A DNA stretch of 45,308 nt from Fibrobacter sp. UWEL (GCF_900142535.1 NZ_FRBE01000024.1:1-45308), one strand, 5' to 3'. Counted from the stretch's first letter, positions 13,822 through 34,824 are shown. Numbers and translations are program-made. The notes: generated from the sequence alone by a model not told the origin.

Positions 13822-15633
13822 ATGCGTTGCCAGTTTAGACTTTTGTCTATTCCCAGAGTTTTTTTATATGAACTTTTGCGGGTTTTAGGGCCTCTCTTGA
13901 AACAGATTTTTATTGTGCTGCTGGCAGTGCTTGCGGCGAATGGATACCCGTCGAAGGGTATCGTCTTGGATTTTGTGGAAACGCCGATTGTGGATGTGGC
14001 GCGGGCGATTTCGTTGGCTTATGACACGCCGATTCTTGTGGATGAGGGGTTGAACCTGAAGGTAACTTTTCACTTAGAGGGTGTGGGCTTGCTGGAAGGC
14101 GTGTCTGCCCTATGTGGGGCCAACGGGTTGACCGTGGTTCAGGAGGGGCGAGTGTTTCATATCCGGCGGGCCGTGGACCGCGGGGTGCATGATTTTTCCA
14201 TCAAGAATGGGCGGGTGAATGTCTCCGCTCGGGATAAACCTGTGGGGGATTTTGTCCGAGAGTTCGCCTTGAATTCGGGGCTGAACATTCTGGCGAGCCC
14301 TGGGTTGTCAGGGGTGGTGACCGGCGAGTTGCGGGATATGGACGCGGAGGCTGCGTTTCGTGCGTTGATGAAAGCCAATGGATTTCGGGTCTGGCGTGAG
14401 GGGGAATGCCTCCGTGTTGACGCTGCAGGTGCGTTGGGCGCTTTGCAGGCAGGTGGCGCGGGGAGCCGCGGAGGTTCGCGGGAAGGCGTCAATGTGCGTG
14501 TGGAACGAGACGGCGATTTGTTCTCGCTGGAATGTAACGGCGGGGAGCTTGGGGCGGTGTTACAATCGCTGGCGGAAACGGCGGGCTTGAACTTGGGTAT
14601 GTACGGCGACATCCGTGAGGCGGTGCACTTGAAGTTTTCGGGTGTGCCGCTGGAGGAATTGTTGAGCGCTCTCTTTAAGGATAGGCGGTACAGCTACGTG
14701 CTGGAAGGCGGTTCCCTGCTGGTGTCCGAGGGTGGTTCCCGCAGGGCGCTGTCGGGTACCCGACTTGTGGCCTTGAAGCATGTGAACTGCGAGAAGGCGA
14801 TGGGATACTTCGCCAAGTTCATGCCCAGCGAGAGCTTTGCCGTCACGGAGGTTCGGGAGCAGAATGCGCTTCTGTTGGGCGGAACTCCCGCGGAATTGGA
14901 AATGGGGGAGGCGTTGTTGCGGCTGGTGGATGTTCCCGCCCTGCAGGTAACGCTCTCCTGCATTATCGTCGAGCTGAAGCGGGGACGCAATTTTGAAATC
15001 GGGTTTCACAGCGGGGCGACGCGGAAGACTGCGGCATACGACGTGGGGGCCCGAGGGTATTTTGATTTCCTCGGGACGGATTTTTCTAAGGCGGGTGCGT
15101 TCGGAAAGGTGGGGCTTTTGCCGGACCGTTTCGAAGTGGAGTTGGCGTCGCTGGAGGAAAATAACCGCGGGAAAGTTCTGGCCCGACCGCGCCTTACCAC
15201 ATTGAACGGCAATAAGGCGGAACTGAATGTGACAAACACGGTGTATTACTTAGTGAGCCAGGTATCCGCTGATGGATATCCCATCACGGATTACCGCTCC
15301 TTCAATGACGGAATTTCTCTGGAGATGATTCCGTCGGTCACTCTGGATGGGAACATCACTCTGGAGGTGTCCCCCGAGATCAAGACTGCGGGCCGATCGA
15401 CGGGGGATGGGCCTCGCGATATCAGCACCCGCAATTTAAAAACGGTGGTGGTGCTGAAGGATGGGGAGTCCCTATGCCTGGGCGGCCTCATTCGCAAGAA
15501 TAAAACCGAGGTAAGGTCCGCGGTACCTTTCCTCGGGAGCATTCCCCTCATCGGGCGGCTGTTTAGCTATGTGTCTGAGGAGGAAGAAGAAAATGAGCTG
15601 GCGATTTTCATTACACCCCATGTGGAAAAATAA
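13822..15633 (+). CDS. Secretin (GspD/PilQ family) outer-membrane channel
   Basis: A 603-residue secretin. After an N-terminal hydrophobic segment (KQIFIVLLAVLAANG) come three successive STN/N0-like modules at about 48-115, 130-200 and 225-300. An N1-like module follows (LVALKHVNCEKAMGYF to LRLVDVP), then the secretin domain (about 370-600) with VLARPRLTTLNG, the D-I-T-R-like DISTRNL and the terminal signature VPFLGSIPLIGRLF. Secretins form the oligomeric channel of type II secretion and type IV pili. The ATG at 13822 gives an unusually long leader. A TTG at 13897, preceded by AGGG at 13887-13890, yields a standard signal peptide and may be the real start. Pseudopilin and assembly genes face it on the minus strand, and it shares an upstream element with them. 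GspE/F/G-type genes are not in the window. Confidence 0.9.
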   Translation: MRCQFRLLSIPRVFLYELLRVLGPLLKQIFIVLLAVLAANGYPSKGIVLDFVETPIVDVARAISLAYDTPILVDEGLNLKVTFHLEGVGLLEGVSALCGANGLTVVQEGRVFHIRRAVDRGVHDFSIKNGRVNVSARDKPVGDFVREFALNSGLNILASPGLSGVVTGELRDMDAEAAFRALMKANGFRVWREGECLRVDAAGALGALQAGGAGSRGGSREGVNVRVERDGDLFSLECNGGELGAVLQSLAETAGLNLGMYGDIREAVHLKFSGVPLEELLSALFKDRRYSYVLEGGSLLVSEGGSRRALSGTRLVALKHVNCEKAMGYFAKFMPSESFAVTEVREQNALLLGGTPAELEMGEALLRLVDVPALQVTLSCIIVELKRGRNFEIGFHSGATRKTAAYDVGARGYFDFLGTDFSKAGAFGKVGLLPDRFEVELASLEENNRGKVLARPRLTTLNGNKAELNVTNTVYYLVSQVSADGYPITDYRSFNDGISLEMIPSVTLDGNITLEVSPEIKTAGRSTGDGPRDISTRNLKTVVVLKDGESLCLGGLIRKNKTEVRSAVPFLGSIPLIGRLFSYVSEEEEENELAIFITPHVEK

Positions 15634-15648
15634 GAGGTAATTGTTGCT

Positions 15649-15722
15649 GGTTGTTGCAGGTTGTTGCGGCGGCGGGTGCAGGTGATTTCGGGTTGTTGCA
15701 GGTTGTTGCGGCGGCGGGTGCA
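15649..15722 (+). repeat. 32-bp GC-rich direct repeat, two copies
   Basis: The 32 bp starting GGTTGTTGCAGGTTGTTGCG and ending GGCGGGTGCA occur at 15649-15680 and again, identically, at 15691-15722, with 10 bp between. The second copy runs straight into the first paired-arm unit of cluster A. A related GC-rich repeat lies on the other side of cluster A (16040-16096). Confidence 0.85.
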
Positions 15723-15993
15723 TACTAAATGGCTTTTTAGGGCGCGTTAGTAGGTATCCGATTTTTTATTTGTTTGGGTTGGTGCATACTAAAAGCGCTT
15801 GGCGACCTGTTTAGTATGCATCAAATTGATTGCGGGCGGCTAACTGGAGGGGAAAATCCTTAAATTACAACTTCCAAACTCGCCGCCATACCTACTAAAT
15901 CCTTTGCGAGGGGTGTTTAGTATGCATACACATTTTTCGGTGCGGAAAGAGGTACCTACTAAATAATGGTTTTTAACTGTTTAGTAGGTATGC
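15714..15993. repeat. Cluster A: four 38-bp paired-arm repeats, TACTAAA type; inverted copy of cluster B
   Basis: Four units have TACTAAA cores at 15723, 15787, 15893 and 15957. Each is followed after exactly 16 nt by TTTAGTA (GTTAGTA in the first). Arms extend outward by either TACC/GGTA or TGCA, in all combinations: TGCA/GGTA, TGCA/TGCA, TACC/TGCA and TACC/GGTA. From 15714 to about 15963 the block, including sequence between units, is about 95% identical to the reverse complement of 20107-20379. It lies between the converging secretin and pseudopilin genes, with no gene inside. No transposase is encoded in it. Confidence 0.92.
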
Positions 15994-16039
15994 ACTATGA
16001 AAAAGGCTCAAAAATGTTGCGGATAAGTGCGGGAGTTTG

Positions 16040-16096
16040 CGGGTTACCGCAGGTTGATTTCGGGTTACCGCAGGGAATGGCGGGTTACTGCGGGAG
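16040..16096 (+). repeat. Three 20-21 bp GC-rich direct repeats
   Basis: CGGGTTACCGCAGG or a close variant recurs at 16040, 16061 and 16081. The stop codon of the short pseudopilin gene lies inside the third copy. GCAGGTTGATTTCGGGTT here resembles GCAGGTGATTTCGGGTT at about 15678, on the far side of cluster A. Confidence 0.75.
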
Positions 16097-16339
16097 GTTG
16101 CGTCGACGGCGGTCTGGTCCGTAGGGATGAACTTGGCGCATTTCGTCAATGAGGGTTTCTGTATCCAGCAGGTAGGTTTTAACCAGATGGTGGTGGGTGG
16201 AGTGAGTGCCCTGCCAGAAAGCAAGCGCGGTTCCTGTCAGTAAGCCCGCAAGAACCATCGCGATAAGAAGCTCCATCAAGGTAAAGCCTCTGGCTGCATT
16301 TGATTTCAAGAGGAGATCCGCCCGCGGGTTTATTTGCAT
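16085..16339 (-). CDS. Short type IV pilin-like minor pseudopilin, probably truncated
   Basis: An 84-residue protein with the prepilin motif RGFTLMELLIAMVLAGLL: cleavage after Gly, Glu at +5, hydrophobic helix. Minor pseudopilins (GspJ/PilW-like) are usually about 150-220 residues with a globular domain. Here the frame ends soon after the helix with a basic tail (DRRRRNLPQ) encoded by the GC-rich direct repeats beside cluster A. This suggests the 3' end was lost by rearrangement. The start overlaps the preceding gene by 10 bp. It is the last gene of a minus-strand operon whose products would be processed by a prepilin peptidase not encoded here. Confidence 0.75.
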   Translation of the reverse strand: MQINPRADLLLKSNAARGFTLMELLIAMVLAGLLTGTALAFWQGTHSTHHHLVKTYLLDTETLIDEMRQVHPYGPDRRRRNLPQ

Positions 16340-16794
16340 GTCAGCAGCCTCCGGAGGGTTACATCATGAGCCATCGGGATGGCAGCGATAGTTAGACGGC
16401 TTACGCCGGGAATAGGAGACAGCAAGACGGTCGTCTCCGTGCAGGGACGGTTCGTGGGGACGCCACCCGACGAAACATTCCCGCTGGGGACGTCACCCGA
16501 CGAAACAATCCCGCTGGGGACGCCGCCCGACGAAACGTTCCCGCTAGGGACGCGTCCGGAAATTTTCACAGAGGGTAGTCCACAGAGGGGCGGCGTCTGG
16601 AGGAGTTGTTCCATAGCGGAGACGGAACATATGTAAGCGTCCACCGCTTGTATTTCGAGACGTCGCTGGTTGTTGAAGTTGACGTAGATAGAACTGAGGG
16701 CGGCCACCCCGATGGACAGAACCGCGGAAGCAACAAAAACTTCCATCAGGGTGAAACCTCTAGACGAGTGCGGCGAACCGGCGGGACGTTTCAT
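16330..16794 (-). CDS. Minor pseudopilin (GspI/PilV-like) with 10-residue repeats
   Basis: A 154-residue prepilin. The N-terminus starts MKRPAGSPHSS, followed by RGFTLMEVFVASAVLSIGVAAL, in which cleavage after Gly leaves Phe1 and Glu5. This is the GspI/PilV style. The start at 16794 overlaps the upstream stop as ATGA; an in-frame ATG at 16851 inside the upstream gene is rejected. Residues about 85-115 are three-plus copies of a 10-residue repeat (SGNVSSGGVP-like), encoded by a 30-bp tandem repeat, in place of part of the globular domain. It is translationally coupled to its neighbours on both sides. Confidence 0.82.
   Translation of the reverse strand: MKRPAGSPHSSRGFTLMEVFVASAVLSIGVAALSSIYVNFNNQRRLEIQAVDAYICSVSAMEQLLQTPPLCGLPSVKISGRVPSGNVSSGGVPSGIVSSGDVPSGNVSSGGVPTNRPCTETTVLLSPIPGVSRLTIAAIPMAHDVTLRRLLTCK
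16456..16545 (+). repeat. 30-bp tandem repeat, three copies, inside the pseudopilin gene
   Basis: Three 30-bp units starting GGGGACG and containing CCCGACGAAAC lie at 16456, 16486 and 16516, with a partial fourth. Because 30 is a multiple of three, copy-number change would lengthen or shorten the protein by 10-residue steps without a frameshift. Confidence 0.88.
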
Positions 16795-17765
16795 TCTAGA
16801 CTCCACTGGATGGAAACTTTCTTGCCGCCCACGATCGCGGGAAGTAAACACCCGAGGGGAGCGGCGGACTCGAGTGTCGCATCCCGACGGGCTGAAACAT
16901 CCTGATGATTTTCCCGAAGAACTGTGGGAGCGACGGAGATGAGATGTATGGGACCTGTGGTGTCGACGCAGTCTGCGGGACTTGTCCTGCGGCGAGATAG
17001 CCTGCTGTTCATGCCCCGAAGGGTGATGCCGCCGGACGAATACATAATGCCGGAAAACGAAACCGCCCGAGACAACTCGATGTTGCCCCTGCTGTATACT
17101 TCCAGATGTCGTGCGTTCACCTCCCCCGTCAAGACGATATTGCCCGAGGCGTAAAGCCGTAGCGTGTCATATCGGGCAGCGCCCCTCACGTTTACATCCC
17201 CATCGCATTTGATGTTCACGGATCCTACGTTCCCGTCAAATCCTAGCGTCACATCACCTGCGGAGACATTCATGGCGAAGCTCTCGCCGCGTCCTGTGAA
17301 ACGCCGGCTGCCGGACTTGACTTTCAGATTGGAGCGGCCCAGGATTTCGCGATTGAGGTTTGCCTCCAGCTGGTCCGCCACCTCCCGCAATTCGTCGCGG
17401 CTCAGGGTGCGAAACGTGGAGCCAACTTGCGCTACAACCCGCCGGGACGATTCGCATCCTGATGTTCTCCCGCGTTCGTCGGATGCGCCGCGTTCACATG
17501 CAGTGCAGGCGGCCGCAGAAACCTTCAGCCAGGGGAAGCCGCCTTCCTCCTGGACCGCGGGCAACCGCAGGTTCCAAGGCGCCTCCGCAAAATAGTCCGC
17601 AGGAAATTGTTCCATCCAGGCGACAATCGCAGACTCTCCCAGGTACACACCCGCCAAGTCTTGCTGGTAGCGGTTCACCAGGCGCCGTACGCCGCCAGGC
17701 AATTGCAACAAACTAAATGCAAGGAGCGTCGCCGACAAAAGCACCGTGAGCACCAGGGCCATCAT
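16791..17765 (-). CDS. PilX/GspK-like membrane-anchored protein with beta-helix region
   Basis: A 324-residue protein. The N-terminal helix (MALVLTVLLSATLLAFSLLQ) starts almost at residue 1 and resembles the anchor of PilX/GspK-type pilin-like proteins, although the classical prepilin cleavage site is absent. Residues about 170-260 contain short repeats of the VNIKCDGDVNVRG / LRLYASGNIVLTG / LEVYSRGNIELS type, suggesting a bactofilin-like or beta-helical fold. Both ends overlap neighbours by ATGA junctions (17765/17762 and 16794/16791), so it belongs to the minus-strand secretion operon. A role as a tip or minor component of the pseudopilus is inferred from position. The exact family is uncertain. 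Confidence 0.65.
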   Translation of the reverse strand: MMALVLTVLLSATLLAFSLLQLPGGVRRLVNRYQQDLAGVYLGESAIVAWMEQFPADYFAEAPWNLRLPAVQEEGGFPWLKVSAAACTACERGASDERGRTSGCESSRRVVAQVGSTFRTLSRDELREVADQLEANLNREILGRSNLKVKSGSRRFTGRGESFAMNVSAGDVTLGFDGNVGSVNIKCDGDVNVRGAARYDTLRLYASGNIVLTGEVNARHLEVYSRGNIELSRAVSFSGIMYSSGGITLRGMNSRLSRRRTSPADCVDTTGPIHLISVAPTVLRENHQDVSARRDATLESAAPLGCLLPAIVGGKKVSIQWSLE

Positions 17766-18985
17766 GGGGAGGAAACCTCAAAAGTTTTCCCGCGGCACTT
17801 GAGAATCAGGTGATCGCGGGTGATTCCGCTAATTACGAATGCGCCATTGGACGCGGCCAGGGAATCGCCTAGAGACAAGGTTTCTGTCCGACCGTTCACT
17901 TCCGCGATGGCAAGTTTTTCGCCAGCGATTCCTCGAAGTTTTATGGAAGGCGGGACGCAACTGGGAGCGAGTCCACCCCGCGCGCGCCCAGCATTCCTAG
18001 CGGGTCCAACCTGCACGCGCCCGAGAGAAAATGCATGCAGTTCCTTGATGGATGCCTGCGGCTCCTCGACGGTTTCTTCCATCGGGGGCAAGTCCAACTC
18101 CACGGCGATTGCGTCTGGAATTTCTGCGGGAGTCCCGAAGCCATCCAATGGCATCCCGAGAATTGACGCGACGAAAAAGACCAGAGCGAAGACGAATAAA
18201 GCCAGCGATGCGGCAACCACCTGCAGCCTCCTGCGGTGCGGCAAGCGGTGCAGCAGCCCGCGGTGCGGCCATTTGCGGCCCGGCCCCAAGGGGAAAAGGG
18301 AATCGCCTGCGGCCTCCTTCAGATCCATCCCGCGAAAGAACGGATCGCGAGAAGCGTCGCGGAACTGCTCCAGAGAAAAGCCTGACGAATCCACCTGCAA
18401 CTCGACTACATCAAAATGTTCTGCTCTTGAAAAAAGACTGTCCTGTTCCAGAAACTTCCGGAAACGCGCCAAGCGATCATCCACCAAACTCCTGACGCAA
18501 TCCCCCGCGCCACTTGACATCGCGACATATCCCAGCTCCTCGGACCAGTGGCAAAGCCGACCTTCAAAATACACCAGAAGATAAAGCAAATCCGAATGCA
18601 ACGCCCAGAAAACACAATTCCCGCTATTGCCATTTTGCTGTTCCATCAGGAACTTGTTCGCCAGAGCCGCCAAACTGATTTGTTCCGGCAAAAGTCGCTC
18701 CGATTTGCGCGCACCGGAATCCAGCAATAGCCCACCATTCATTGACGAAGGCAGCGCCACCAAATATCGCCACAAACGCCCCTCCGTCGCGTTGAAGGAA
18801 ACCATGGGCCACATTTTCACAAGAAGCGATCCTCCCGCAAGTTCGACCCGGCGAGGCATTTCACGCAAGAATTCTTCCAGCACTTTGCTGGCCGAGGGCT
18901 CCCCATCAAAAGTGGTGCAGTATTCCCAAGTCATCAAGCGGCAAGGAACAGGCACACGCCTGTCCATGAACAAATCAATGAGCAT
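17762..18985 (-). CDS. GspL-like / GspC-like fusion, inner-membrane secretion platform protein
   Basis: A 407-residue protein. The first ~250 residues are soluble and lack an ATPase motif; their position before one membrane span suggests the cytoplasmic actin-like half of GspL/PilM, but sequence support is weak. A single transmembrane helix lies near 262-284 (VVAASLALFVFALVFFVASI). After a proline/acidic linker, the last ~60 residues (IKLRGIAGEKLAIAEVNGR, then LSLGDSL and FVISGITRDHLILKCRGKTFEV) match the HR domain of GspC/PilP, which docks on the secretin's N0 domain. This would join cytoplasm, inner membrane and secretin in one chain. It is the first gene of the minus-strand operon and overlaps the next gene (ATGA). 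The 23-bp element shared with the secretin gene lies upstream. Confidence 0.65.
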   Translation of the reverse strand: MLIDLFMDRRVPVPCRLMTWEYCTTFDGEPSASKVLEEFLREMPRRVELAGGSLLVKMWPMVSFNATEGRLWRYLVALPSSMNGGLLLDSGARKSERLLPEQISLAALANKFLMEQQNGNSGNCVFWALHSDLLYLLVYFEGRLCHWSEELGYVAMSSGAGDCVRSLVDDRLARFRKFLEQDSLFSRAEHFDVVELQVDSSGFSLEQFRDASRDPFFRGMDLKEAAGDSLFPLGPGRKWPHRGLLHRLPHRRRLQVVAASLALFVFALVFFVASILGMPLDGFGTPAEIPDAIAVELDLPPMEETVEEPQASIKELHAFSLGRVQVGPARNAGRARGGLAPSCVPPSIKLRGIAGEKLAIAEVNGRTETLSLGDSLAASNGAFVISGITRDHLILKCRGKTFEVSSP

Positions 18986-19130
18986 AAAATTCGAAGAATG
19001 AATTGCAATCGCTTTCTTGCATCAATACTGCAGAAAACACCTGGATATATCAACCACAGCAAAAGCCATGTACCTAGCAAATCTACATTCCCCCGTCCCC
19101 GTTCGTCAAGTAACGAAAGCCAATACAAAA

Positions 19131-19153
19131 AATTTTGCAAACAACTGTTGACA
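19131..19153 (-). promoter_or_regulatory. Second copy of the 23-bp shared element
   Basis: Exact reverse complement of 13739-13761. On the minus strand it points toward the GspL/GspC-like gene (start 18985). On the plus strand it ends in TTGACA (19148-19153), facing the nuclease gene. Only the 23 bp match; the flanks differ. Confidence 0.6.
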
Positions 19154-19179
19154 AAATGAAAGCTGTTACAGACAAACTC

Positions 19180-19208
19180 TTGTCTTTTCAAAAAATCAAA
19201 TCTATAAT
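19180..19208 (+). promoter_or_regulatory. Sigma-70-type promoter of the nuclease gene
   Basis: TTGTCT (19180-19185), a 17-bp spacer and a perfect TATAAT (19203-19208) precede the ATG at 19218. Transcription would begin at about 19215, leaving almost no leader and no ribosome-binding site, so the mRNA may be leaderless. Confidence 0.65.
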
Positions 19209-19217
19209 AAGCCCACC

Positions 19218-20081
19218 ATGAAAAAGAAAGTCAAACCTATTCAAAAGAAATCAACACGCAACGCGGTCAGCACACTCTCTACAGATAATATTGTAGAAGC
19301 CGCGACCAAACGTCTTCAAGAACTCGAAGCAGTCTTACCTATCTTAGAAGGGGCTTGCGCCAAGAAAGTTACAGAAAGACTTCGCATTCTCCAGAAGAAA
19401 AATTCTTTCCAATATTACGTCATTCCTAAGGGAGATAACTCCAACGGAATTTACCTTCACGCAAAACAGATTTCAAAAGCAGCGACCATCGCTCAATTTG
19501 ACTACAATCAGAAAGTCATCGACTTGATGAAGCGAGACGTCAAGACGCTTCAATCTTTTCTGAATAGCTACCATCCCGAAAAATACGATCAGGCTTTTAG
19601 CACTCTAAACCCCGGGCGGAAACAAATTTTGAATCCTATCAGATATCCCGATGAAGAGTATGTGAAAAGATGGTGCGATGTTCCCTACGAAGGACTTTCC
19701 TTCCACAATGAGCATAACGAATACTTTACGGATAAAGGAATCCGCGTTCGTTCCAAGTCTGAGATGATTATTGCCAACAAGCTATCAAAAGCGGGAGTTC
19801 CCTTCCGGTACGAAGCCCCCGTCATCTTTGAAACACCACGACACATCAAGTTTCATCCCGACTTTACTTGCCTCAATGTCCGCACTCGAAAAGAAATCAT
19901 CTGGGAGCATTTCGGCATTATGGACGATCCCGATTACGCCAATGAAACCCTCCAGAAAATCGGGTTGTTCGCCGCCAACGGGTATAGACTGGGGGATAAC
20001 TTCCTGGCCACATTTGAAAACGGCAGGACTACACTTTCACTTCATCAAGTTGCGCAATACGTGAAGATGCTGGCAGAATAA
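19218..20081 (+). CDS. PD-(D/E)XK-superfamily nuclease-like protein
   Basis: A 287-residue protein with a Lys-rich start, a helical probably coiled-coil N-terminal part (about 25-135) and a C-terminal nuclease-like domain (about 170-285). Visible motifs are VRSKSEMIIANKL (Glu at about 182), HPDF (Asp at about 213) and IIWEHFG (Glu at about 230). They correspond to the E...PD...ExH/K pattern of restriction-endonuclease-like folds and to a family common in gut bacteria with the consensus RSKSE..IA, PDF, WEH. A conserved tail, NGYRLGDNFLATFE, follows. The biological role is unknown: restriction, repair or mobile-element defence are possible. The gene sits just inside cluster B, within the 4.1-kb block bounded by inverted clusters A and B, and has its own promoter. 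Confidence 0.65.
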   Translation: MKKKVKPIQKKSTRNAVSTLSTDNIVEAATKRLQELEAVLPILEGACAKKVTERLRILQKKNSFQYYVIPKGDNSNGIYLHAKQISKAATIAQFDYNQKVIDLMKRDVKTLQSFLNSYHPEKYDQAFSTLNPGRKQILNPIRYPDEEYVKRWCDVPYEGLSFHNEHNEYFTDKGIRVRSKSEMIIANKLSKAGVPFRYEAPVIFETPRHIKFHPDFTCLNVRTRKEIIWEHFGIMDDPDYANETLQKIGLFAANGYRLGDNFLATFENGRTTLSLHQVAQYVKMLAE

Positions 20082-20100
20082 AACAGCTCTTTTTCAGGAG

Positions 20101-20379
20101 GATACATACTAAACGCATCAAAAGCACAGTTTAGTAGGTACCTCTTTCCACACCGAAAAATGTGCATGCATACTAAACACCCCTCGCAAAGGATTTAGTA
20201 GGTATGGCGGCGAGTTTGGAAGTTGTAATTTAAGGATTTTCCCATCCGGTTAGCCGCCCTCGGCCAATTTGATGCATACTAAACAGGCCTCCAAGCGCTT
20301 TTAGTATGCACCAACCCAAACAAATAAAAAATTGGATACCTACTAACGCGCCCTAAAAAGCCATTTAGTATGCACCCGC
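20101..20379. repeat. Cluster B: four 38-bp paired-arm repeats; inverted copy of cluster A
   Basis: Units start their TACTAAA at 20107, 20171, 20277 and 20341 (TACTAAC in the last), each with TTTAGTA exactly 16 nt later. The block is the reverse complement of cluster A at about 95% identity, except in the innermost unit (20103-20140). There the arms are kept but the 16-nt core is entirely different from its cluster A counterpart. It lies between the converging nuclease and glycosyltransferase genes. Confidence 0.92.
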
Positions 20380-20444: not shown

Positions 20445-22013
20445 TTACTTACCTAAGTCCACGCCTTCCACATGGTGGTTTTCATCCTTGCGAGCCTTGT
20501 GAACTTCCACCAGGTTGCCCAGGTAATGCATGAAGCTCAAAACACCCACAGAGAGGAAGCCGATGGAATAAAGTGCCAGGAACGGTCCGATAATGAACTT
20601 CTGTGCGCCGATGTATTCCAGCAAACCGAAAATACAGTAGACGCCCACGCCCAGTTCGAGAACTGCCTGCCAGGGGAACTTCTGCTTGTAGTGGCTGGTT
20701 GCCTTCTTCTTCTGGCCCACACCGCTCTTGGGGGTGCGGACGAAGCCGCTCTTATGTCCGGTCACTGCAGCGAATACTGCCTTGGTGTTGCTCACTGCGA
20801 TACCTACGCCCAGAGCCATGAGGATGGGCATGCTCAGCAGGCGAACCTTCCAACCAGTATAGCCGGAGCAGCGCTGTGCAACGAAGTAAAGAACAGAAGG
20901 AGCAATTGCAGCCAGGAAAATGAAAGTAAAGCCAACAGTGTAAGCCCAGACCGGCAGGTTAGCTACGGGCTGGAAGAATGCCAACAGAGGCCATGCACAC
21001 AGTGCAGTGAACAACATGCAGGGGTGGATGGAATAGTGGGTGGTATGAAGGATTGCACCGATCTTCACGCGGAAAGGAACGTTTGCCTTGAGAACGCGGG
21101 GGAGGATCTTCTTTGCGGTCTGGATAGAACCCTTTGCCCAGCGGAACTGCTGTGCCTTGAAGGAGTTGATATCGTTGGGAAGTTCTGCAGGGACGATCAC
21201 GTCGAACACGAACTTCATCTTCCAACCAGCAAGCTGGGAACGGTAAGAAAGGTCCATGTCTTCGGTCAGGGTATCGCCTTCCCAGCCGCCACCGCCATAG
21301 ATGGCCTGCTTGCGCCAGACACCTGCGGTACCGTTGAAGTTCATAAAGAGCTTGCCCCAGCTACGTGCGGACTGTTCCACCACGAAGTGGCCGTCGATAC
21401 CGATGGACTGAGCAAGAGTAAGACCGGATTCGGTGCGGTTCAAGTGACCCCAGCGGCCCTGGACCAGACCAATCTGTTCGTCCATGACCAGGTAGGGGAT
21501 GGTCTTCAGGAGGAAGTCCTTTTCGGGTACGAAGTCGGCATCGAAAATGGCAAGGAAATCGCCCTTGGCGATGGCCATGGCTTCCTTAAGGGCGCCGGCC
21601 TTGAATTCCTGGCGGTTCACGCGGTGGATCAGCTTGATGTCGTAACCCTGAGCCTGCAGTTCTTCCACCTTCTTCTTGGCCACTTCGTAGCATTCGTCGG
21701 TAGAGTCGTCCAGCACCTGGATTTCGTGCTTGTCCTTGGGGTAATCTATGGCGCATACAGCCTCAAGGAGACGTTCGACACAGTTAGCTTCGTTAAAGAC
21801 GGGAAGCTGGGTGGTGACCTGAGGCAGGTCCGCCATGCTGTGTTCGCGATAGAACTGCAAGATCTTCTTGCGGTCGGAAAGGCGTGTGGTACGGCTGTTC
21901 TTGAGGAACAAGTAGATACTGTAGTAACAGCTGAAACCGTAGATAACGAGACCAACACCCGCAATCACATAGACTGCGAACATGATGTCCAGTAGGATTG
22001 TACTGATTGCCAT
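20445..22013 (-). CDS. Processive family-2 glycosyltransferase (cellulose/mannan synthase-like)
   Basis: A 522-residue membrane glycosyltransferase. One N-terminal membrane segment (AISTILLDIMFAVYVIAGVGLVIYG region) precedes a cytosolic GT2 domain. The processive D,D,D,QxxRW motifs are all visible: LDDS at about 102, FDADF at about 159, TED at about 251 and QQFRW at about 289. Several C-terminal membrane helices follow (CMLFTALCAWPLLAFF, FIFLAAIAPSVLYFV and others). Such enzymes polymerise beta-linked glucose or mannose and may export the chain; the CslA/CslC-like group is the nearest in feel. A TTG-initiated extension to 22064 is possible, but the ATG at 22013 starts directly before the membrane segment. 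It is transcribed alone, with a terminator after it, and is divergent from the TusA-like gene. Confidence 0.9.
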   Translation of the reverse strand: MAISTILLDIMFAVYVIAGVGLVIYGFSCYYSIYLFLKNSRTTRLSDRKKILQFYREHSMADLPQVTTQLPVFNEANCVERLLEAVCAIDYPKDKHEIQVLDDSTDECYEVAKKKVEELQAQGYDIKLIHRVNRQEFKAGALKEAMAIAKGDFLAIFDADFVPEKDFLLKTIPYLVMDEQIGLVQGRWGHLNRTESGLTLAQSIGIDGHFVVEQSARSWGKLFMNFNGTAGVWRKQAIYGGGGWEGDTLTEDMDLSYRSQLAGWKMKFVFDVIVPAELPNDINSFKAQQFRWAKGSIQTAKKILPRVLKANVPFRVKIGAILHTTHYSIHPCMLFTALCAWPLLAFFQPVANLPVWAYTVGFTFIFLAAIAPSVLYFVAQRCSGYTGWKVRLLSMPILMALGVGIAVSNTKAVFAAVTGHKSGFVRTPKSGVGQKKKATSHYKQKFPWQAVLELGVGVYCIFGLLEYIGAQKFIIGPFLALYSIGFLSVGVLSFMHYLGNLVEVHKARKDENHHVEGVDLGK

Positions 22014-22118
22014 ATAACCGTATAACCTATTTAAATTGGTGCTTTTTACAAAGCTTGGCGCCAAATATAGAAACGCTACAGGAACTTTGCTACATTTATC
22101 CCGTAATTTTTACCTAAA

Positions 22119-34578: not shown

Positions 34579-34824
34579 TACCTACTAAATTGCTGAAAAG
34601 GGGCAAATAGTATGCATTGTCAAATGCTGTTTGTTTAGCGATACCTACTAAATGGCGTAAAATGGTTGTTTAGTAGGTATGAAATCCCCAAAATCCACTC
34701 GCATGGAGCCAAATTTATGGAGTAAAAGGGGCAAATTGCCCTTTTATAGGGACAAAATCCTCCCAAAAATGCCGACGGGTACCTACTAAATGGCGTAAAA
34801 TGGTTATTTAGTAGGTATGAAATT
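34579..34824. repeat. Cluster C: three 38-bp paired-arm repeats, TACTAAA type
   Basis: TACTAAA starts at 34583, 34646 and 34784, each followed after exactly 16 nt by TTTAGTA (AATAGTA in the first). Units two and three are nearly identical over 46 bp, including the core and a trailing TGAAAT, and lie in direct orientation 138 bp apart. Between them is another hairpin (AAAAGGGGCAA / TTGCCCTTTT, about 34723-34746). The sequence between units is unrelated to clusters A and B. The cluster lies between converging cpoB and murA; no gene is inside. Confidence 0.9.

Follow-up and report, generated by a model that had tools for sequence, protein, structure and literature searches.

Arrays of phased palindromes associated with a predicted nuclease family lie at both ends of an inverted pilin operon in Fibrobacter sp. 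UWEL

In a stretch of 45,308 nt from Fibrobacter sp. UWEL (GCF_900142535.1 NZ_FRBE01000024.1:1-45308; hereafter the window, with all coordinates counted from its first letter), four genes of a pilin operon face the gene for the secretin, and the block that contains them, along with a gene for a putative nuclease, is enclosed by two inverted repeats, A and B, composed of short interrupted palindromes (Table 1). The question raised by this locus is how the facing layout has come about, and how the palindrome arrays and the nuclease are related to it and to each other. The answer that we consider probable, though well short of certain, is that arrays and nuclease form a selfish pair similar to the REPIN/RAYT systems, in which the nuclease reads the array, the arrays spread, and recombination between their copies caused the inversion seen here. 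A first-pass annotation of this sequence had described the repeats as ~280 bp long and ~95% alike, and had suggested either an inversion between A and B or a mobile cassette. The ungapped inverted match between the two (15714-16008 with 20085-20379) was found to extend over 295 nt with 91% identity, and its core (15714-15963 against 20379-20107) contains ~11 differences in 250 bp, in agreement with the ~95% figure. The contents of the block were also as described, consisting of a plus-strand nuclease gene and four minus-strand genes, namely two pilin genes with N-methylation motifs, a DUF7305 gene and a gene for a protein of 407 amino acids (aa), with the secretin gene (PF00263) located outside.

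The comparison of this locus across Fibrobacter genomes that the annotation had proposed was carried out, and its results support the inversion. A match to the secretin was found in 61/61 genomes of the genus (only a weak paralog in the case of G062), and the 407-aa gene was likewise present in 61/61. In all 59 other genomes possessing both true genes these two are neighbours on the same strand, the window being the exception. Gene-by-gene comparison with four of these genomes (G077, G011, G025, and G005) showed that the secretin, gspL-like, DUF7305, pilB and pilA genes are co-stranded and followed by an opposed glycosyltransferase gene, and no relative of the window nuclease was found in these four orthologous regions. 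G077, the closest genome with this locus, has the un-inverted order, and both the arrays and the nuclease are missing from it at this place. In the window, all four genes of the operon run the other way, with one array at each junction and the nuclease beside array B; when this flip is undone, one array and the nuclease come to lie between the secretin and the 407-aa gene, and the second array between pilA and the glycosyltransferase gene. The reversed order is thus found in this genome only and has repeats at both of its breakpoints, as expected for inversion by recombination between repeats, and the facing layout was not seen without A and B in any genome compared. The pilin operon is inverted relative to related genomes. 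The idea of a mobile cassette holds for the arrays and the nuclease, but not for the pilin operon, which is resident DNA caught between them.

The repeating unit of arrays A and B is a 30 bp interrupted palindrome, TACTAAA-N16-TTTAGTA, with outer bases TGCA, TACC or TACA. Each array contains four units with start spacings of 64, 106, and 64 bp, and the exact unit pattern occurs eight times in the window versus none in 100 shuffled sequences. The homology between A and B is limited on one side by the outer arm of the outermost unit and on the other by the TACTAAA of the innermost unit, whose interior sequence is not common to the two. The element extends beyond the two clusters that were originally recognized, as a third cluster (34583-34813) is present in the window, and elsewhere in this genome (G000) contigs C7 and C13 carry clusters of the same type, as do contigs C23 and C45, both of which open with one. 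The sequences of C23 and C45 that bear this array are 99% alike over the first 165 bp; hence the array there coincides with a break in the assembly and perhaps with a further rearrangement. Of the 37 Fibrobacter genomes tested, 12 contain the exact unit pattern, which was absent from all 24 genomes tested from outside the genus. At the position of cluster C, G077 (L220:7288-7475, contig C9) contains palindromes with a different half-site, CATACTAG/CTAGTATG, and this specificity was absent from the surroundings of those nucleases of G077 that were examined. Short GC-rich repeats, GGTTGTTGCGGCGGCGGGTGCA and GGTTGATTTCGGGTT, flank array A (15641-15722 and 16034-16103), and they also adjoin the arrays with which C23 and C45 begin (L018/L019, position 1-35).

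An inversion of this kind needs nothing beyond inverted homology, and other short intergenic repeats occur in these genomes. A and B might hence be ordinary intergenic repeats unrelated to the nuclease, which inverted the operon by chance recombination. We regard this as most improbable in view of the association of such arrays with the nuclease family. A strict detector (10 bp arms with no more than one mismatch, and at least two units with a common half-site, within 700 bp of a nuclease gene) identified an array beside 109 of 146 genes of this family, as opposed to 1 of 503 control windows taken at a greater distance within these loci and 0 of 284 shuffled sequences. As some loci entered the set twice, from separate collections, the 146 genes are not fully independent, and 79 of the array-bearing ones are non-redundant. 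Seven of the loci where no array was detected were inspected by eye, and several of them have degenerate arrays. The pairing is present in Fibrobacter, in Treponema and in the Lachnospiraceae/Butyrivibrio/Clostridiaceae, i.e. in three phyla. As described below, the half-sites also co-vary with the N-terminal domain of the nuclease, and arrays located elsewhere in the genome follow the cognate nuclease; neither would be expected of unrelated repeats.

Across the family, the arrays consist mostly of 3-4 units (range 2-8) of 34-40 bp and are typically 270-300 bp long. The unit spacings correspond to whole turns of the DNA helix (n = 162, period 10.55 bp, R 0.877, phase offset 0.07 bp), a result to which no formal significance is attached because the loci are related. 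The centres of the units are ~77-94% A+T, and the flanks on either side of them fall to 33-60%. The half-sites found beside the Fibrobacter relatives are TTACATACTAA, GGGGCGTATAA, GTACCTATAA, TTACGTACTA, TACGGACTAAA, ATAGGACTAAA, and CACCCACTAAA; those beside Treponema relatives are ACGGACGAAA, CCCACTTAAC, and TCATATAATT, and that beside Clostridiaceae relatives is ACCGGCAAAA. Of 44 non-redundant Fibrobacter arrays, 27 have a spacer motif, TTARTTTGT, between their units versus 0 of 163 control windows of equal length, and the motif is nearly absent from the mixed-taxon set (3/34 versus 2/99 controls). The Fibrobacter loci L104, L094, and L106 are examples, and a similar sequence is found at 15764-15777 of the window. 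The motif is often extended to TTAATTTGTTTGTAAA and is possibly a site for a host factor or a promoter. In one clade (L037, L038, L039, L042, L056, and L058) a second conserved hairpin, GCGTTGATAC...GTATCAACGC, is located between the array and the nuclease gene, near the 5' start of the latter.

Relatives of the window nuclease are present in 41 of the 61 Fibrobacter genomes, often several per genome, and they are mostly 30-48% identical. A scan of 84,980 species genomes identified more than 570 relatives, the best 80 of which are from Fibrobacter, Treponema, Butyrivibrio and other Lachnospiraceae, Clostridiaceae, and Oscillospiraceae. Searches of Pfam, NCBIfam and PHROGs with the nuclease gave no confident family, a sequence-profile search of solved structures gave nothing credible, and a Foldseek search with the nuclease model gave no match at an E value of 0.001. 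However, the C-terminal domain of PDC-S68 from PADLOC-DB matches residues ~160-285 (1e-11 to 1e-25), and this match, together with the structure model (mean predicted local distance difference test score, pLDDT, 93), backs the earlier labelling of the protein as a PD-(D/E)XK-like nuclease. In the model a helix is followed by a beta-hairpin (54-60/63-69), a long helix and the C-terminal nuclease domain. The folds nearest to the catalytic domain by VIA-align included those of I-Bth0305I (3r3p, Z 7.8 over 90 residues), TnsA (1t0f, Z 7.7), Vsr (1cw0, Z 6.0) and Bax1; these matches, all of them below the confidence level of the tool, are suggestive of a Vsr/PD-(D/E)XK-like fold. Several residues (e.g., R178, S179, K180, E182, Y198, E199, F216, E230, H231, and G233) are invariant in both of our alignments, the second of which spans phyla. 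They fall in the SKSE, YE, F.C, and WEH.G motifs of the catalytic domain, as expected if the protein is an active enzyme.

The part of the nuclease that follows the half-site was examined in the 79 non-redundant pairs. Half-site similarity was found to follow the N-terminal part of the protein once the C-terminal part was controlled for (partial r 0.35, permutation p 0.001), whereas it showed no relation to the C-terminal part after control for the N-terminal part (partial r -0.03, p 0.86). Residues 58-76, which correspond to the predicted hairpin and the loop following it, contain seven of the nine columns with the strongest signal (65, 60, 75, 61, 58, 74, and 76). Additionally, at one chromosomal station, where the upstream DNA includes purA and is 82-91% alike, the specificities differ between genomes; in DNA alignments of the nuclease genes from this station the first ~200 bases often drop out and the remainder is 76-84% identical. 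Because of this co-variation, the N-terminal part is well supported as the reader of the half-site, and these data are most simply read as binding of the half-sites by the nuclease itself.

The unit interiors differ from one unit to the next, and VIA-align lists structures of TasH for the helical N-terminus (Z 7.2-8.0), both of which could be taken to indicate that the palindromes are transcribed as hairpin guides in a CRISPR- or TIGR-like manner, the interiors serving as guides. The TasH matches, however, cover 66-69 residues of long helices with 7-8% identity, which is within the stated noise of the tool for helical models, and we have rejected this likeness. The units are inverted repeats spaced 63-106 bp apart at whole helical turns, and not contiguous direct repeats. 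In individual units (e.g., units 1 and 3 of array A) the outer arms are not always able to pair, which fits with recognition of the half-sites by a protein better than with hairpins. The nuclease has no sequence match to an effector family of this kind, and a search of Rfam with the arrays of the window and of five loci gave no match, the only hit being to RNase P in a neighbouring locus. A hairpin of RNA or single-stranded DNA was considered more generally and was set aside because half-sites that vary within a unit are often unable to pair with each other, whereas the hairpin of the protein does follow the half-site. Guide arrays are hence a very unlikely explanation.

Arrays of the same families are also found away from nuclease genes, as solo arrays, and the evidence is strong that these are dispersed copies which occur almost only in genomes with a matching nuclease. 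The GGGCGTATAA palindrome was found in all four genomes with a nuclease beside such arrays but in only 2 of 57 others (p 3e-5), and the GTACCTATAA palindrome in all five such genomes but in only 3 of 56 others (p 9e-6). The counts per genome were obtained by pattern searches with exact half-sites, and they are therefore lower bounds. Within one genome, the solo arrays can be aligned over the array only, with ends close to the array limits and in both orientations, and they are homologous along their whole length including the spacers; the likeness is ~69-77% among four loci of G061, 92% for A and B and 99% for C23 and C45. One solo array of G080 has no counterpart at the corresponding site in six relatives, one of which, G036, has a closely similar nuclease. 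A solo array of the window type on contig C7 of UWEL (L016:5251-6177) is located ~140 bp from a gene for a Transposase_31/YhgA-like protein (PF04754), a family that is linked to recombination.

About 31 solo arrays were examined, all of them intergenic, and their neighbouring genes are codirectional in 12 cases, convergent in nine and divergent in nine. A, B and C all lie between convergent genes, but a rule to this effect failed in the wider set. These observations also bear upon the possibility that the arrays are operators, to which the nuclease or a partner binds and represses its own gene by looping, with the solo arrays controlling a regulon. In its favour, most arrays are situated 100-650 bp 5' of the nuclease gene, phased palindromes would suit a looping repressor, and the TTARTTTGT motif could be promoter-like. 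However, several arrays are located solely 3' of the gene (at +22 bp in the window and at +2 to +4 bp in L101, L103, and L108), and the solo arrays are whole-length homologous copies that are present or absent between close relatives. A promoter or operator role for the latter was set aside because the orientation of their neighbours is mixed (9 of 30 are between convergent genes, and no orientation is preferred), and we consider the operator explanation unlikely.

Some nucleases have copies of the array on both sides (L084, L085, L088, L104, L121, and L124). A paralog in the same genome as the window (contig C4) is flanked by direct 300 bp copies of the array that are 94.7% alike, and G077 has neither paralog nor arrays at this locus. 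An array-nuclease-array structure could also result from homing, where the enzyme cuts a solo array and repair inserts the nuclease gene there, the dispersal of the arrays then having another cause; the nearest fold of the catalytic domain is that of an EDxHD homing endonuclease, I-Bth0305I. Unlike ordinary homing sites, the putative targets are here intact beside the gene, and no locus was found where one genome has a solo array and another genome an array-nuclease-array; at the single locus that was checked, L104, G077 was fully empty. Homing in this form is rather unlikely, although it is partly compatible with the reading that we favour.

A, B and C are copies of a dispersed intergenic palindrome array that, according to the proposed selfish pairing, belongs to the adjacent nuclease. 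A dimer of the nuclease would bind each palindrome, with the N-terminal beta-hairpin of each subunit reading one half-site and the catalytic domains placed over the AT-rich centre of the unit, where cleavage would take place. As the units are separated by whole turns of DNA, several dimers could assemble on one face of the helix. The arrays would spread to new intergenic sites as copies resembling REPINs or miniature inverted-repeat transposable elements (MITEs), in dependence on the genome's own nuclease, the copying step probably proceeding via breaks and repair; the binding, the central cleavage and the break-driven copying are what we infer from the comparisons. Half-site and hairpin would diversify jointly, giving each lineage a private specificity. 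In the window, an array and the nuclease may have entered between the secretin gene and the next gene of the operon, and a second copy of the array may have entered the gap that separates the last pilin gene from the glycosyltransferase gene; recombination between the inverted copies would then have flipped the pilin operon.

A number of observations weigh against this proposal. The inversion rests on a draft assembly of 62 contigs and, given this and the 250 bp inverted repeats, a misassembly or a mixed population may lie behind the order in the window. The structural matches of the catalytic domain are moderate, with Z below 8. Cutting of its own flanking array should be harmful, and cleavage must therefore be restrained or conditional. 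Many nuclease genes have long occupied housekeeping loci, with purA, a MiaB-like gene, and cysS as neighbours, and look vertically inherited. The sister species G036 and G080 share many solo arrays, so that turnover or spreading must be slow. Lastly, no target-site duplication was visible at the single empty site compared (the G080 array versus six relatives), where the borders have diverged.

The features of the locus are listed in Table 1. The second pilin-like gene of the inverted operon contains a 30 bp tandem repeat (16455-16553; 3.3 copies, 89% matches).

Table 1. Coordinates of the arrays and of the genes surrounding them in the window.
Feature	Coordinates	Strand	Units or basis
Secretin gene, fixed flank of the inversion	13822..15633	+	PF00263, 5e-42
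Array A, four interrupted palindromes, inverted copy of B, breakpoint on the secretin side	15714..15994	.	Units 15723-15752, 15787-15816, 15893-15922, 15957-15986
Segment between the arrays, inverted relative to all related genomes	15995..20102	.	Gene-order comparison
Small pilin-like gene of the inverted operon	16085..16339	-	N-methylation motif
Pilin-like gene of the inverted operon	16330..16851	-	N-methylation motif
DUF7305 gene of the inverted operon	16791..17765	-	Domain match
407-aa gene, GspL-like by position	17762..18985	-	No Pfam match
Nuclease gene, 287 aa, Vsr/PD-(D/E)XK-like	19218..20081	+	PDC-S68 C-terminal match and structure model
Array B, four units, breakpoint on the glycosyltransferase side, begins 22 bp past the nuclease stop codon	20103..20379	.	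Units 20107-20136, 20171-20200, 20277-20306, 20341-20370
Glycosyltransferase gene, fixed flank on the far side	20445..22064	-	Gene-by-gene comparison
Array C, three units, same family as A and B	34579..34819	.	Units 34583-34612, 34646-34675, 34784-34813

Of the systems known, the closest in its general features is REPIN/RAYT, which consists of REP sequences and REP-associated tyrosine transposases (PMC3116915). Both have dispersed extragenic palindromes, an enzyme gene with its cognate elements next to it, a population of elements that depends on the enzyme, and lineage-specific sequences. However, RAYT is a Y1 HUH transposase, whereas the present enzyme, with no Pfam or NCBIfam match, is predicted to be a Vsr/PD-(D/E)XK-like nuclease. 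REP doublets form hairpins of single-stranded DNA, whereas the arrays described here have 2-8 phased units whose arms are often not fully complementary within a unit, and the helical phasing and the co-variation of hairpin and half-site point to reading of double-stranded DNA. As the fold of the enzyme and the architecture of the element both differ, the present system is placed outside REPIN/RAYT. I-Bth0305I, which is described as dimerising on a long target of nearly 60 bp (PMC3943268; structure 3r3p), would share a C-terminal Vsr-like catalytic domain combined with a separate DNA-reading part, the likeness being confined to the catalytic part (Z only 7.8, no sequence match). In contrast to it, no intron or intein is involved here, and the putative targets are intact, repeated beside the gene and dispersed. 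As with MITEs and insertion sequence transposases, or solo long terminal repeats, short non-autonomous copies exist alongside a full version carrying the enzyme gene, array-nuclease-array resembling a composite element and the solo arrays its solo ends, but here there is no DDE transposase, no single pair of terminal inverted repeats and, at the one empty site, no target-site duplication. The phage-defence candidate PDC-S68, which shares the C-terminal domain, is ~1200 aa long with other domains, while the nuclease genes of this family adjoin housekeeping genes in the annotated loci. CRISPR and TIGR guide arrays differ in consisting of direct tandem repeats with guides, served by an RNA-guided effector.

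No description of the array-nuclease pairing was found in the open literature of PubMed Central, a search that did not extend to subscription papers and most preprints. The broad idea of palindromic intergenic repeats with a cognate enzyme is already known. We give about even chances to the wider proposal that these pairs constitute a new selfish class in three phyla of gut and rumen bacteria, in which a nuclease recognises and disperses its own phased arrays, array and reader are re-specified together, and the result is a private network of sites able to rearrange the genome. If this is correct, a second and unrelated type of enzyme would be added to the very short list of systems that spread intergenic palindromes in bacteria. 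The family also provides a large natural set of hairpin/half-site pairs (79 non-redundant ones, with more than 570 relatives in one scan), by means of which a protein-DNA recognition code and its co-evolution become directly testable. The pairing would, if true, account for an operon inversion, and possibly for assembly breaks, in rumen bacteria that are important for fibre digestion.

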